Source of the DNA: Desulfobacterales bacterium | GTDB taxonomy: Bacteria; Desulfobacterota; Desulfobacteria; Desulfobacterales; JAHDSC01 | Length of the DNA: 47,382 nucleotides | Assembly: GCA_016931455.1 (NCBI GenBank) | Contig: JAFGES010000115.1 | Span: 1 to 47,382 of the forward strand | Direction of reading: 5' to 3' | In this document: in pieces, positions 1 to 3,791 of the stretch | How the letters are laid out: each line of letters begins with the position of its first letter | Position numbering within the stretch: position 1 is the first letter of the stretch | Notes under the pieces: generated by a model | Seen by the model: the letters and a program-made list of their open reading frames with translations, nothing else | Told to the model about the DNA's origin: nothing | The model's database searches: none | Made by a program: the position numbers and the translations under genes

Positions 1-140
1 GAAAAATCCGAGTAAGTCGTGCTGAGTTGTACGTCGTCGAGGATTTTGACTGATAACGCAGTGAAATTAATTATCTGAAAATCTATAGTAGGATGATTCG
101 AGAGTCAGAAGACCTGCCATCTGAGTTCATGTTTGAGGAG
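1..140 (+). promoter_or_regulatory. 3' part of a cobalamin riboswitch (left end outside window or divergent)
   Basis: Positions 90-118 carry the conserved 3' core of the cobalamin aptamer (GATGA, then GAGAGTCAGAAGACCTGCC). This stretch differs at one base from the core of the complete riboswitch at 3661-3688. The upstream B12-box-like segments seen in the second copy (GGGAA, CCGCCGCTGT, GCCACTG, GGGAAGG) are not recognisable in 1-89, so the aptamer either starts before the window or has an unusual variable arm (a stem is possible between about 4-10 and 40-47). It precedes an attenuator stem and the operon ending in cobT, as expected for B12-repressed cobamide genes. Confidence 0.65.
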
Positions 141-145
141 AAGGC

Positions 146-190
146 AAATCCTCAAGCGATTATTTATTATCGCTTGAGGATTTTTTTTTG
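146..190 (+). terminator. Attenuator (intrinsic terminator) of the first riboswitch
   Basis: A perfect 15-bp inverted repeat (146-160 with 169-183, 8-nt loop) ends in an unbroken T run. The sequence TTTGAGGA at 132-139 is almost the same as the right arm of the stem (173-180) and could pair with 149-156 instead, so it is a natural antiterminator. Ligand-bound aptamer would be expected to release the terminator and stop transcription of the operon that starts just downstream. Confidence 0.85.
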
Positions 191-217
191 AAAAGACAAA
201 GCGAGGTTGTGGATTTT

Positions 218-1261
218 ATGATGAAAGCCGCCGTCCTAACGGACACACAAAATTTGGAAATTAGAAAAATTCCAATACCCGCCTGTCCGCCAAACGGGGT
301 CCTGGTACAAGTCAAGGCCTGCGGAATATGTACGGCTGATGTAAAAATGGTCGCAGAAGGGCACCGAGCCTTAATTTATCCCAGGATATTGGGGCATGAG
401 ATTGCCGGTGTTATAGCCGAAAGCCGAACCGATCAATATAGCCCCGGTGAGCGGGTTCAGATTGCTCCCGGTCTGAGATGCGGCAATTGTGATCCATGCG
501 GCCGGAATGCCGATCATCAATGTCTGAAGCGGGAAATTTTCGGTTTCACACGTGATGGTGGGTTTACGAATTTTTTAGCCGTGCCTCTGCAAGGGCCCAT
601 GCGAGGTGCATTAAATCGGCTTCCTGCGACGGTCAGTGCGGAAGAAGCAACTTTGGCCGAACCTATTGCCTGTTGCCTCAATGCCCAATACAAGGTTGCC
701 GTAAAAGAAGGGGATAGCGTTTTAATCGTGGGGGCCGGAACGCTGGGGTTGCTTCACTTGCTTATTGCCCGACTCAAAGGTGCCGGAAAAATATTTGTTT
801 CCGAGGTTCATGAATATCGAAGGAAAATGGCGCGTGAGTTCGGAGCGAATGAGGTTTTTAATCCGGAAAATGTGGATCTGTTTCAATGCATAATGGATGC
901 AACGCATGGAAGCGGTGTCGATATCATCATTTTTGCATGTTCTCAGGTGGGTATTGAAAATACATTTTTAAGAATGTCGGCGCCCGGAGGAAGAATTTCG
1001 GTTTTCAGCGGTATTTCGAACCGGTTTTCCAATATCCGGTTAGACTTAAATTTTATTCATTATCATGAACTTACCATAACCGGTGCATATGGATGTACAG
1101 CTGCTCAAAATGCGGAAGCTATTGGTTGGCTTGCTTCGGGTAAACTGCCGATTAAACGGTTTATCACTCAGCGGGTCGGCTTGGAAGAGGTTGCAGCCGG
1201 ACTTGAATACACTGCCGGCAAGAAGGGATTGAAGTCGATCATAAAGGTGCAATATGAATGA
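218..1261 (+). CDS. Zinc-dependent MDR alcohol dehydrogenase-like protein of the cobT operon
   Basis: This is a medium-chain dehydrogenase/reductase of about 347 residues, a normal length for the family. Visible features are the catalytic zinc ligands (Cys in ACGICTADV, GHE in ILGHEIAG), the four-cysteine structural zinc loop (CGNCDPCGRNADHQC), and a Rossmann dinucleotide site (GAGTLG). The family oxidises alcohols or reduces carbonyls with NAD(P). I chose ATG 218 because GAGG at 203-206 lies in front of it; the open frame reaches back to a TTG at 188, inside the terminator T run. It is the first gene after the attenuator and overlaps the next gene by 8 nt, so it is very likely a B12-repressed cobamide gene. 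The substrate is unknown; a role in making or modifying a lower ligand, or in aminopropanol formation, is inference only. Confidence 0.85.
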   Translation: MMKAAVLTDTQNLEIRKIPIPACPPNGVLVQVKACGICTADVKMVAEGHRALIYPRILGHEIAGVIAESRTDQYSPGERVQIAPGLRCGNCDPCGRNADHQCLKREIFGFTRDGGFTNFLAVPLQGPMRGALNRLPATVSAEEATLAEPIACCLNAQYKVAVKEGDSVLIVGAGTLGLLHLLIARLKGAGKIFVSEVHEYRRKMAREFGANEVFNPENVDLFQCIMDATHGSGVDIIIFACSQVGIENTFLRMSAPGGRISVFSGISNRFSNIRLDLNFIHYHELTITGAYGCTAAQNAEAIGWLASGKLPIKRFITQRVGLEEVAAGLEYTAGKKGLKSIIKVQYE

Positions 1262-2363
1262 AAGATTTGTAAAATTTGGAAATTCCATCGACCGGTTGAT
1301 TGCCGGAAAAGATCTTTCCCGTGAGGAAGCGCAGTTGTGTTTTGCTGAGATTCTCAAAGCAGAGCAAAGCGATATTCATCAAGGGGCCTTTCTTTCCGCA
1401 ATTACGGCTAAGGGGCCTAGTCCAAAAGAAATAGCAGGTGTTTGGCAGGCCATTTATGATTTTGACACCGTCAAAGTATCACCTAAAATCAAAAAACCGA
1501 TCGTTGATAACAGCGGTACGGGTATGGACGGTTTTAAAACTTTCAACATCAGCACGGCAGCGGCAATTGTAGCTGCAGCAGGAGGGCTCTGTCTGGCAAG
1601 ACATGGGGCACGTGCCATCACGTCTCGTTGCGGAACCGTTGATCTTTGTGAAGCTCTCGGCATTGATATGGAATGCCCGGCGCAGATCGTGCAAACAAGC
1701 ATTGAGCAAGCCGGTATCGGTCTATTTAATGGTATGAGCGCCTGCGTACATCCGCATGCTTTGTTCAGGATACTGTCGCAAATGAGGTTCGGCAGTATTT
1801 TGAATATTGCCGCATCATTGGCGAATCCGGTCAAGCTCGATTACGGCGTGAGAGGAGTTTATTCCGCAGAAATGATCACTCCCGTAATCTGCTCGATGAA
1901 AGAGATCGGCTTTAAAAGAGCCTTGGTGTTTCACGGACAAAGCGGCAATGGATCAGGGGGAATGGACGAAATTTCTCCGGTTGCCGAAAGTTTGGCCGCT
2001 GAACTCAGTGCCGAAGGTAACATTGCCTACTATAGGCTGGAGCCGAAAGATTTGGGATTAAGAGGGGCTTTAAATCTTTCGGAAATTGCAGGCGGCAGTG
2101 ACCCTAATCATGAGGCGGTAAGACTTTTAAAGGTTTTTAATGGTAAAGATAAAAAAACGCTTTATGAAACCATCTGTCTCAACACTGCGCCTATTTTTTA
2201 TGTGGCCGATGAGGTTCGAAATTTAAAAGAAGGGGTTGAAAAGGCTCGCGATATCATCGATTCAGGAGATGCCCTGGACAAATTGAGAATGTGGGTACAT
2301 ATGCAGAATCGGGATGCGGATGTCGGTGAGAAACGGCTGGATGAGTTGATGGATAGACTCTAA
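1254..2363 (+). CDS. Anthranilate phosphoribosyltransferase-like protein (TrpD-like) in cobT operon
   Basis: The 369-residue protein has the fold signatures of the AnPRT/nucleoside phosphorylase II family: a helical N-terminal domain, then a glycine-rich PRPP-type loop with the TFNIST phosphate motif (residues about 88-100), and an acidic GMDEI motif (about 236-240). The KHGNR motif of true TrpD reads RHGAR here, so the Asn that contacts anthranilate in TrpD is replaced by Ala. No other trp genes are near. The gene overlaps the upstream dehydrogenase by 8 nt (ATG inside its last codons, AAGGTG upstream) and lies 23 nt before the chosen start of cobT. The context suggests it phosphoribosylates, or makes, an aromatic or heterocyclic precursor of a cobamide lower ligand. 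That role is inference; a TrpD2/YbiB-type protein of other function is the alternative. Confidence 0.85.
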   Translation: MNERFVKFGNSIDRLIAGKDLSREEAQLCFAEILKAEQSDIHQGAFLSAITAKGPSPKEIAGVWQAIYDFDTVKVSPKIKKPIVDNSGTGMDGFKTFNISTAAAIVAAAGGLCLARHGARAITSRCGTVDLCEALGIDMECPAQIVQTSIEQAGIGLFNGMSACVHPHALFRILSQMRFGSILNIAASLANPVKLDYGVRGVYSAEMITPVICSMKEIGFKRALVFHGQSGNGSGGMDEISPVAESLAAELSAEGNIAYYRLEPKDLGLRGALNLSEIAGGSDPNHEAVRLLKVFNGKDKKTLYETICLNTAPIFYVADEVRNLKEGVEKARDIIDSGDALDKLRMWVHMQNRDADVGEKRLDELMDRL

Positions 2364-2386
2364 TTTTATAAATGGAGGTTAAGAAA

Positions 2387-3475
2387 ATGCTTCTGAAAGA
2401 TTTCGGTTTGGAAAAAATCATACATGGAATTGTTCCGGCGAATAAAAAATGGATCGAAAAAGCGCAAGACCGAACCGGCCGGTTGATTATGCCGACGCGA
2501 GCACTGGGGAAGCTCCATGACATTTCAGAAAGACTATGTGGAATTCAAGAGACCTTAAAACCTTCGATCAGCAAAAAGGCCGTTTTGGTAATGGCCGGAG
2601 ACCATGGTGTGGTGGCCGAAGGCGTCAGTGCTTATCCGCAGGAGGTTACCGGTGAAATGGTGCGTGCATTTCTCAAAGGCGGTGCGGGTATCAATGTGAT
2701 TTCGAGGCAGGTCGGTGCAGATGTCTGGGTCGTTGATATGGGTATAATTCCAAAACTTGACCCGGCCTTGCTTGAAGGTGGACAATGGCTTTTAGTGAAT
2801 AAAGTAGGTCCCGGAACGGCAAATTTAGCCCAAGGACCTGCCATGAAACGCCAAGATGCTGAAACGGCAATTTTAACCGGCTTTCATTTGGCGGCCGAAC
2901 TTTTCAACAAGGGTGTTGAAATTCTAGGTACGGGGGACATGGGCATCGGTAATACAACTCCATCGGCAGCCATCGGCACCGTTGTCGCCGGTGCAACCAT
3001 CGAGGAGATGGTCGGCCGAGGAACCGGGATCGATGATGAAGGACTTCAGAAGAAACAAACGGCCATTCGTCGTGGGATTCAGGTAAATATGCCCGACTCC
3101 GATGATGGATTGGATATATTATCTAAAATCGGCGGCTTTGAAATCGGTGGAATTGCGGGGTGTATTTTAGCAGGGGCTTACCATCACCGCCCAATCGTTA
3201 TTGATGGTTTAATTTCCACTGCCGGGGCTTTGGTAGCCCATAAAATTTGTCCAACGGCAACCGATTATATTTTTGCAGGACATTGTTCCGAGGAACCCGG
3301 TCATCGAATCATGTTAAATTATCTGGGGTTAGATCCTATTTTGAATCTCGGTATGCGTCTGGGCGAGGGCACGGGCGGAGCATTGGCAATGGGAATCATG
3401 GAAGGCGCGGTCCGAGTTTTTCGGGAAATGCTGACATTTGATGAAGCCAACGTTTCCAATAAAGAATCGGCATAG
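2387..3475 (+). CDS. cobT: Nicotinate-nucleotide:dimethylbenzimidazole phosphoribosyltransferase CobT
   Basis: CobT transfers the ribose phosphate of nicotinate mononucleotide to a lower-ligand base, giving the alpha-ribotide that is later joined to the corrin ring. Recognisable motifs are AGDHGV near residue 75, the TGDMGIGNTT segment in the middle, and the C-terminal LGEGTGGALA, which holds the catalytic Glu. The length of 362 residues is usual. I chose ATG 2387 because GGAGG at 2374-2378 is 8 nt upstream; the frame also has an ATG at 2372. It is the last gene of the riboswitch-led operon. No cobS, cobU, cobC or bza genes are in the window, so it was not possible to tell from neighbours which base is used. 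Confidence 0.96.
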   Translation: MLLKDFGLEKIIHGIVPANKKWIEKAQDRTGRLIMPTRALGKLHDISERLCGIQETLKPSISKKAVLVMAGDHGVVAEGVSAYPQEVTGEMVRAFLKGGAGINVISRQVGADVWVVDMGIIPKLDPALLEGGQWLLVNKVGPGTANLAQGPAMKRQDAETAILTGFHLAAELFNKGVEILGTGDMGIGNTTPSAAIGTVVAGATIEEMVGRGTGIDDEGLQKKQTAIRRGIQVNMPDSDDGLDILSKIGGFEIGGIAGCILAGAYHHRPIVIDGLISTAGALVAHKICPTATDYIFAGHCSEEPGHRIMLNYLGLDPILNLGMRLGEGTGGALAMGIMEGAVRVFREMLTFDEANVSNKESA

Positions 3476-3511: not shown

Positions 3512-3534
3512 TTTAAAAAAATGATATAAAGCTT

Positions 3535-3720
3535 AGGCGCTCATTTTGAGCTTAATAGGGAACTCCGTGTGAATCGGGACGGGCCCGCCGCTGTGATCGG
3601 GGACAAACGCCGCACGATGCCACTGTTTTGTGGATTAGAAAATGGGAAGGCGCGGTTAATAGGATGATCCGAGAGTCAGAAGACCTGCCTGAGCTTAAAG
3701 GTAACCTCCGTGGATATAAG
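3535..3720 (+). promoter_or_regulatory. Complete cobalamin riboswitch without a same-strand downstream gene
   Basis: All conserved blocks appear in the proper order: GGGAA and GTGTGAATC near 3558-3575, GGGCCCGCCGCTGT near 3581-3594, GCCACTG at 3619-3625, GGGAAGG at 3644-3650, and the GATGA...AGACCTGCC core at 3661-3688. A terminator follows at 3757-3791. Riboswitches of this class normally repress B12 synthesis or uptake genes. Here the next genes on the same strand are more than 14 kb away, so either its target was lost or it controls a non-coding or antisense transcript. Confidence 0.92.
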
Positions 3721-3756
3721 GTATACCAAAGGATCAGAGGATAAAAAAGGGAAATC

Positions 3757-3791
3757 CCCAGATCGATTAAATTCGGTCTGGGTTTTTTTTT
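3757..3791 (+). terminator. Expression-platform terminator of the second riboswitch
   Basis: The arms CCCAGATCGA (3757-3766) and TCGGTCTGGG (3773-3782) form a 10-bp stem with one G-U pair, and a run of nine T follows. This is a standard intrinsic terminator placed about 70 nt after the aptamer. Confidence 0.85.

Follow-up and report, generated by a model that had tools for sequence, protein, structure and literature searches.

A putative cobamide-controlled dehydrogenase and TrpD-like transferase pair associated with CobT in bacteria and archaea

Results

An enzyme pair next to CobT

Three genes stand in a row at the start of the window, the 47,382-nucleotide stretch of DNA from a Desulfobacterales bacterium that was analysed here. 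They encode a medium-chain alcohol dehydrogenase (ADH), a phosphoribosyltransferase resembling TrpD (TrpDL) and CobT, the nicotinate mononucleotide (NaMN):base phosphoribosyltransferase, and they lie behind a terminator and a truncated cobalamin riboswitch, of which only the 3' portion remains (Table 1). On balance, ADH and TrpDL would form an unrecognised nucleotide-loop module that acts just before CobT and most likely supplies the lower-ligand base. The first-pass annotation had suggested that the two enzymes may form, with CobT, an unrecognised unit that is repressed by cobamide and supplies a lower ligand or an alpha-ribotide, and this proposal is now well supported by gene linkage in both domains, by riboswitches and by ADH–CobT fusions.

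The window covers contig C30 from its first base onward in a 3.38-Mb draft genome (G000), which was 97% complete. The earlier description of a riboswitch 3' core and attenuator followed by three coupled genes was accurate: ADH and TrpDL share 8 nt (1254–1261), and cobT follows after a short gap. The start of cobT is more likely at 2387 than at 2372, with a GGAGG ending 8 nt ahead of the ATG at 2387. The first riboswitch, cut by the contig edge, scored 13.4 bits against RF00174 (E 0.32; gathering score 31.5) and was outscored by a chance match to another family, and this score alone is no proof. Its B12-box region matched the intact copy (3656–3691) at 31 of 36 bases, and homologous operons mostly had a full RF00174 riboswitch at the equivalent position; on these two grounds positions 1–135 are taken to be the remaining 3' portion of such a riboswitch.

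Conserved linkage across bacteria and archaea

A scan of an 84,980-species collection found 304 relatives. Among the best 80 of these, the bacterial hosts included Desulfobacterota, Desulfosporosinus (Firmicutes), Candidatus Formimonas warabiya, Peptococcaceae, Dehalococcoidia and Aquificota, and the archaeal hosts included Methanothrix, Methanomassiliicoccales and anaerobic methanotrophic archaea of group 1 (ANME-1), mostly lineages that we take to be anaerobic. The pair presumably spread over the two domains by horizontal transfer. In the same order, TrpDL was found in 17 of 116 genomes (own included) with 46–76% identity to the window TrpDL; the other full-length matches were 28–36% identical, and three partial matches were excluded. 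Nine of the 148 genomes of an archaeal phylum were positive, and a score gap separated TrpDL (at least 487 bits) from other matches (at most 266 bits).

In 95 of the 100 TrpDL loci examined (98 distinct), ADH was encoded on the same strand at a distance of at most 1.5 kb. Of the other five loci, L119, L151 and L175 were truncated by the end of their contig, and L041 and L108 had no ADH in the available sequence and no contig end that would simply account for this. CobT was located within 3 kb in 28 loci and archaeal CobT in 21 (49/100 together, including a few partial CobTs such as those of L040 and L135). Archaeal CobT was confirmed by TIGR00303 in both loci checked. The 46 control loci (37 distinct, many with short flanks) carried either a true TrpD or the TrpD-like protein of a distant second pair, termed group 2, and none of them had a CobT of either type. 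The gene orders ADH–TrpDL–CobT, CobT–TrpDL–ADH and arCobT–ADH–TrpDL were all seen, and the three-gene set, for which the first-pass annotation had proposed a search in Desulfobacterota, recurs in bacteria and archaea. L142 contained the run nadB (542.0 bits, cut-off 452.75), an unassigned gene, cobD, cbiB, ADH, TrpDL and cobT, and L152 contained TrpDL and ADH followed by BtuF- and BtuC-like genes and cobU. The divergences of ADH and TrpDL were correlated over 68 loci (r = 0.84), a correlation that shared ancestry alone also yields.

At the level of genomes, CobT was present in 16 of the 17 TrpDL genomes of the order and in 13 of 16 bacterial TrpDL genomes outside it. The genomes without a CobT match (G100, G126, G136 and G154) were all drafts or metagenome assemblies. 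PF02277 detects archaeal CobT poorly, so that zero counts in archaea are meaningless. Apart from ABC ATPases and TonB receptors, no third conserved partner was seen across distant lineages in the 45 largest open reading frame (ORF) clusters around 80 loci, among which were many antisense shadows and of which most had no family search, or in 12 loci inspected by eye.

In 35 of the 41 bacterial TrpDL loci scanned (15/16, 12/14 and 8/11), a cobalamin riboswitch that exceeded the gathering score lay directly upstream of the unit and ended at most 300 nt from it. The exceptions were L050, L111, L142, L152, L164 and L175; L164 and L175 had little or no upstream sequence, and L142 and L152 had other cobamide genes upstream or around. 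We infer that expression of ADH and TrpDL is shut off by cobamide.

ADH–CobT fusions

In seven genomes (L046, L050–L054 and L174), ADH and CobT were encoded in a single open frame of 704–767 aa. The fusion gene stood after TrpDL and was found in part of the Desulfobacterota clade, and Pfam searches with two fusion frames returned ADH_N, ADH_zinc_N and DBI_PRT. The window CobT scored 426.7 bits against TIGR03160, above the equivalog cut-off of 319.3, and kept the catalytic-Glu motif RLGEGTG, which was also kept across the complete sequences aligned.

TrpDL differs from TrpD in its acceptor site

On the NCBIfam trpD model (TIGR01245), TrpDL scored 243.7 bits against a cut-off of 199.05, and all five TrpDL proteins tested exceeded it (242–289 bits). 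Being over this standard cut-off, TrpDL will predictably be annotated as TrpD. A separate TrpD-family gene on contig C8 of the host genome scored 417.3 bits on the same model and was 31% identical to TrpDL.

An alignment of 98 TrpDL, six group-2 and 11 true TrpD sequences showed that the motif residues for phosphoribosyl pyrophosphate (PRPP) and Mg (GTGxD, NxST and DE) were retained in TrpDL. The Asn of KHGN, present in 11/11 true TrpDs, was Ala or Ser in 98/98 TrpDL, and a second conserved residue, Arg in 11/11 true TrpDs, was Leu in 98/98. Leu174 and Ala/Ser119 set TrpDL apart from the 11 true TrpDs, and Leu174 also from group 2. Asn159, Arg172, Ser188 and Arg200 were invariant in TrpDL and missing at those columns from the 11 true TrpDs. 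The changed Asn and Arg read as Asn138 and Arg193 of Mycobacterium tuberculosis TrpD, both listed as mutated in structure titles, and we take these two residues to have a role in handling anthranilate. The predicted structure of TrpDL (mean pLDDT 88.3), which contributed the fold only, superposed on TrpD, including PRPP-bound entries, with Z 41.7 and rmsd 2.0–2.3 over at most 340 residues. Because the PRPP/Mg residues are kept and the acceptor-site Asn and Arg are lost, TrpDL should still use PRPP but with an acceptor other than anthranilate. The TrpDL clade was monophyletic in one FastTree run with modest support (0.61), and the score gap given above sets it off more clearly.

In ADH, C37, H59, E60 and E147 and C87, C90, C93 and C101, which we take to be catalytic and structural residues, respectively, were conserved in 81–83 of 83 sequences. 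The dehydrogenase looks intact and of the Zn- and NAD-type. Its score on the L-threonine 3-dehydrogenase model TIGR00692 was 160.7 bits, under the equivalog cut-off of 458.35, and its relatives with names act on sugars, polyols and threonine.

Known base routes in TrpDL genomes

BluB (TIGR02476) was not found above its cut-off in any of the 116 genomes of the order, own included. The ThiC family divided into BzaF and ThiC proper, and nine of the scanned copies of ThiC proper were accompanied by a thiamine pyrophosphate (TPP) riboswitch. BzaF proteins were 62–81% identical among themselves and 37–48% identical to ThiC. Of the five BzaF genes, four were scanned, and each of these four directly followed a cobalamin riboswitch. 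BzaF proper (at least 63% identity, full length) was found in 20 of the 116 genomes, with fragments in at most three more. The host genome, a draft, contained neither BzaF nor BzaA plus BzaB, and the sole ThiC-family gene found in it was ThiC proper, with a TPP riboswitch upstream and 41% identity to a BzaF. ArsAB-type tandem CobT homologues were also absent from the host genome, where one CobT was found. In another TrpDL carrier, Desulfosporosinus hippei DSM 8344, the sole gene found of this kind was ThiC-type.

Four ThiC-family proteins of Methanothrix and relatives (L212–L215) formed the sister group of BzaF in the tree and are candidate archaeal 5-hydroxybenzimidazole synthases.

Other features of the window and host genome

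A second, intact riboswitch with its own terminator (window 3518–3790), absent from the first-pass annotation, follows cobT. No convincing same-strand gene was seen behind it among the ORFs. In the relative L044, a riboswitch at the equivalent place precedes a TonB receptor, and on contig C104 of the host genome another riboswitch is upstream of a TonB receptor. The second riboswitch of the window may be what remains after the loss of a btuB-like gene.

The host genome contained eight cobalamin riboswitches above cut-off. CbiK, CobN and a TonB receptor each stood directly behind one of three of them, a CbiA/CbiP-type gene was near a fourth on the opposite strand, and further along, with CobN, there was a frame in which CbiZ is joined to a domain of the periplasmic binding type. 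The host probably makes and remodels corrinoids, since it carries these riboswitch-linked genes together with CbiZ and CbiA/CbiP-type genes. The periplasmic-binding and CbiZ amidohydrolase domains were in one 673-aa frame (L060, 10731–12752), at a locus with a cobalamin riboswitch.

The group-2 pair of ADH and a TrpD-like protein carried the motif GTGSD. It was about 35% identical to TrpDL, had no CobT nearby and had a cobalamin riboswitch in 0/6 loci; it is another uncharacterised enzyme pair of like kind.

Table 1. Positions of features in the window and of the group-2 loci
Feature	Position	Strand	Basis
Cobalamin riboswitch, 3' part, truncated by contig start	1–135	+	RF00174 model positions 90–189, 13.4 bits (below gathering score)
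Intrinsic terminator (attenuator) between riboswitch and ADH	146–183	+	15-pair stem, T tail
ADH, Zn- and NAD-type medium-chain dehydrogenase	221–1261	+	ATG 221, stop 1261; Pfam ADH_N and ADH_zinc_N
TrpDL, predicted TrpD-fold phosphoribosyltransferase with re-made acceptor site, TrpD paralogue	1254–2363	+	Glycos_transf_3; alignment, fold
CobT, NaMN:base phosphoribosyltransferase	2387–3475	+	DBI_PRT; TIGR03160 426.7 bits
Second, intact cobalamin riboswitch	3518–3706	+	RF00174 108.8 bits, above gathering cut-off
Terminator of second riboswitch	3757–3782	+	
Group-2 pair, L055	6348–8453		
Group-2 pair, L056	6296–8361		
Group-2 pair, L057	7953–10257		
Group-2 pair, L058			
Group-2 pair, L066			
Group-2 pair, L067			

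Discussion

A proposed order of steps

In the proposed pathway, TrpDL would move phosphoribose from PRPP onto a small acceptor, aromatic or N-heterocyclic, other than anthranilate. ADH would then oxidise the product of TrpDL, plausibly at its ribosyl moiety, given that the named relatives of ADH have sugars, polyols and threonine as substrates. The lower-ligand base formed in this way, or its direct precursor, would pass to CobT, which would make the alpha-ribotide from NaMN. In the ADH–CobT fusions the product may be channelled, by analogy with BluB–CobT. The order of these steps is our proposal; the linkage, pairing, fusion and residue pattern on which it draws are observations on sequences. 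Supply of the base is preferred over other roles because ADH, like BluB, occurs fused to CobT, because CobT is kept, and because the hosts are mostly of anaerobic lineages, in which BluB cannot work. Going further, we regard it as possible, and short of probable, that ADH and TrpDL are a third, oxygen-independent lower-ligand route that is common to bacteria and archaea and uses PRPP and NAD chemistry where BluB destroys a flavin and Bza enzymes use ThiC-like chemistry. Such a route could make an orphan base like 5-methylbenzimidazole, a known orphan base, or a base not seen before.

Several observations weigh against base supply by the pair. CobT was not found within 3 kb in 51 of the 100 TrpDL loci, and L041 and L108 had a riboswitch and TrpDL with no ADH in the available sequence. 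BzaF and TrpDL occurred together in two of the 17 TrpDL genomes of the order (G035 and G040), and outside the order bza-type genes were present in six of 31 classified TrpDL genomes. Four of these six were BzaF-like (Methanothrix/Methanosarcinales), and two were tandem BzaAB-like genes named from their adjacency (Desulfosporosinus lacus and Firmicutes HGW-14). Among 85 CobT-bearing genomes of the order, TrpDL and BzaF overlapped in two against 3.6 expected (P = 0.24, or 0.15 with the three BzaF fragments), so that mutual exclusion was rejected as the overlap was not significantly low, and 52 of the 85 had neither. Moreover, no pathway is known to us that leads in two steps from PRPP to a benzimidazole or a purine.

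The idea that the pair stands in place of bza genes is only partly right: most classifiable TrpDL hosts had no bza-type genes, but two of 17 in the order and six of 31 outside it did. Judged from gene content, ADH–TrpDL is often, though not always, the sole base-supply candidate in its genome. ADH–TrpDL does not account for the whole of the missing-base gap, because Bza and TrpDL are not mutually exclusive and 52/85 genomes have neither. The first-pass annotation had also named occurrence of the dehydrogenase and TrpD-like genes elsewhere, away from cobT and riboswitches, as evidence against its proposal. In part this was found: about half of the loci had no CobT within 3 kb, and the distant group-2 pair does occur without cobT and riboswitch. 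The association with riboswitches held in the bacterial loci, as given above.

As a side observation, L041 (3871–5249) carries a riboswitch, then TrpDL without ADH, and then a gene of the Phenol_MetA_deg family.

Alternative roles

The alternative that survives best, which we nevertheless consider unlikely, is that ADH and TrpDL serve the phosphoribosyl side of the reaction. TrpDL would remake NaMN or a beta-ribotide donor from PRPP and the nicotinate released by CobT, or the pair would form a second alpha-ribotide route in which PRPP transfer is followed by C1' epimerisation via a keto-sugar. The PRPP site of TrpDL is kept, CobT consumes NaMN and releases nicotinate (PMC9561151), nadB of NaMN synthesis is also in L142, and the host genome had no match to the nicotinate phosphoribosyltransferase (NAPRTase) family. 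However, a NAPRTase-family match was present in 12/17 TrpDL genomes of the order and 61/99 others, and with no association between the two, replacement of NAPRTase by TrpDL was rejected. Alpha-ribotide synthesis independent of CobT was likewise rejected, as CobT is retained in most bacterial TrpDL genomes (16/17 in the order and 13/16 outside) and such a route is unneeded. Recycling of nicotinate also leaves ADH unexplained.

It is less probable still that the role of the pair lies elsewhere in the loop, or in uptake and remodelling, acting either on the aminopropanol linker through a threonine-dehydrogenase-like ADH or in the breakdown of foreign bases released by CbiZ, with the link to CobT reflecting a general cobamide regulon. 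The relation of ADH to threonine dehydrogenase, well under the model cut-off, the position of L152 among B12 uptake genes and the presence of CbiZ in the host genome are consistent with such roles. CobD for the linker, however, already stands beside the pair in L142, the fusion partner of ADH is CobT, and a phosphoribosyltransferase has no evident part in linker synthesis.

That TrpDL is a second tryptophan-pathway TrpD, beside cobT by accident, was rejected as highly improbable, since its trpD score above cut-off and TrpD fold are set against a separate trpD on C8 (417.3 bits), the loss of the acceptor-site Arg and Asn in 98/98 sequences, and linkage maintained across phyla.

Significance and comparison with known systems

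Shelton et al. (PMC6461909) found no known gene for benzimidazole synthesis or phenolic-base attachment in 42% of the predicted cobamide-producing bacteria that they surveyed. ADH–TrpDL is a concrete candidate for filling some of this gap, being a B12-controlled pair that accompanies either CobT class and, in seven genomes, is joined to CobT through ADH. ADH–TrpDL reaches methanogens, ANME-1 and sulfate reducers, where the cobamide type may affect who feeds whom. The pair may have escaped notice because TrpDL exceeds the standard trpD annotation cut-off (5/5 tested). No description of the ADH–TrpDL pair with cobT in cobamide synthesis was found in the open-licence papers searched. For a Chlorobium with cobalamin riboswitches, a figure legend names trpD and a dehydrogenase among variable-region genes, their adjacency being unstated in the excerpt (PMC8620254).

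BzaF, BzaA and BzaB belong to the radical-SAM (S-adenosylmethionine) class. Like the present genes, the bza operons (bzaF–cobT; bzaA–bzaB–cobT–bzaC and others) are anaerobic and adjoin cobT, and four BzaF-type genes of relatives are behind cobalamin riboswitches. They make the benzimidazole base with ThiC-like enzymes that act on aminoimidazole ribotide (PMC8123684, PMC6461909), whereas the enzymes here, a transferase of the PRPP type and a dehydrogenase, come from families unrelated to these. TrpD shares with TrpDL the fold and the PRPP and Mg motifs, but TrpDL has Ala/Ser and Leu in place of the acceptor-site Asn and Arg and is under predicted B12 control. Archaeal CobT (MjCobT class) activates 5-hydroxybenzimidazole and adenine, and the excerpt of that paper describes no base-forming partner (PMC9561151); here this CobT adjoins ADH and TrpDL in 21/100 loci. 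ArsAB is similar in that CobT-family proteins activate unusual lower ligands (PMC6461909), with tandem CobT homologues there and a single CobT in the host genome. The closest parallel to the fusions is BluB–CobT2 of Propionibacterium freudenreichii, in which the base-forming BluB is joined to CobT and passes on 5,6-dimethylbenzimidazole (DMB), with channelling shown (PMC4657239). In both cases an enzyme is fused to CobT, BluB there and ADH here, but BluB is an oxygen-dependent flavin enzyme, and none scored above the cut-off in the 116 genomes of the order. Lower-ligand supply beside CobT is already known, and, as far as we found, the enzymes ADH and TrpDL are new to it.

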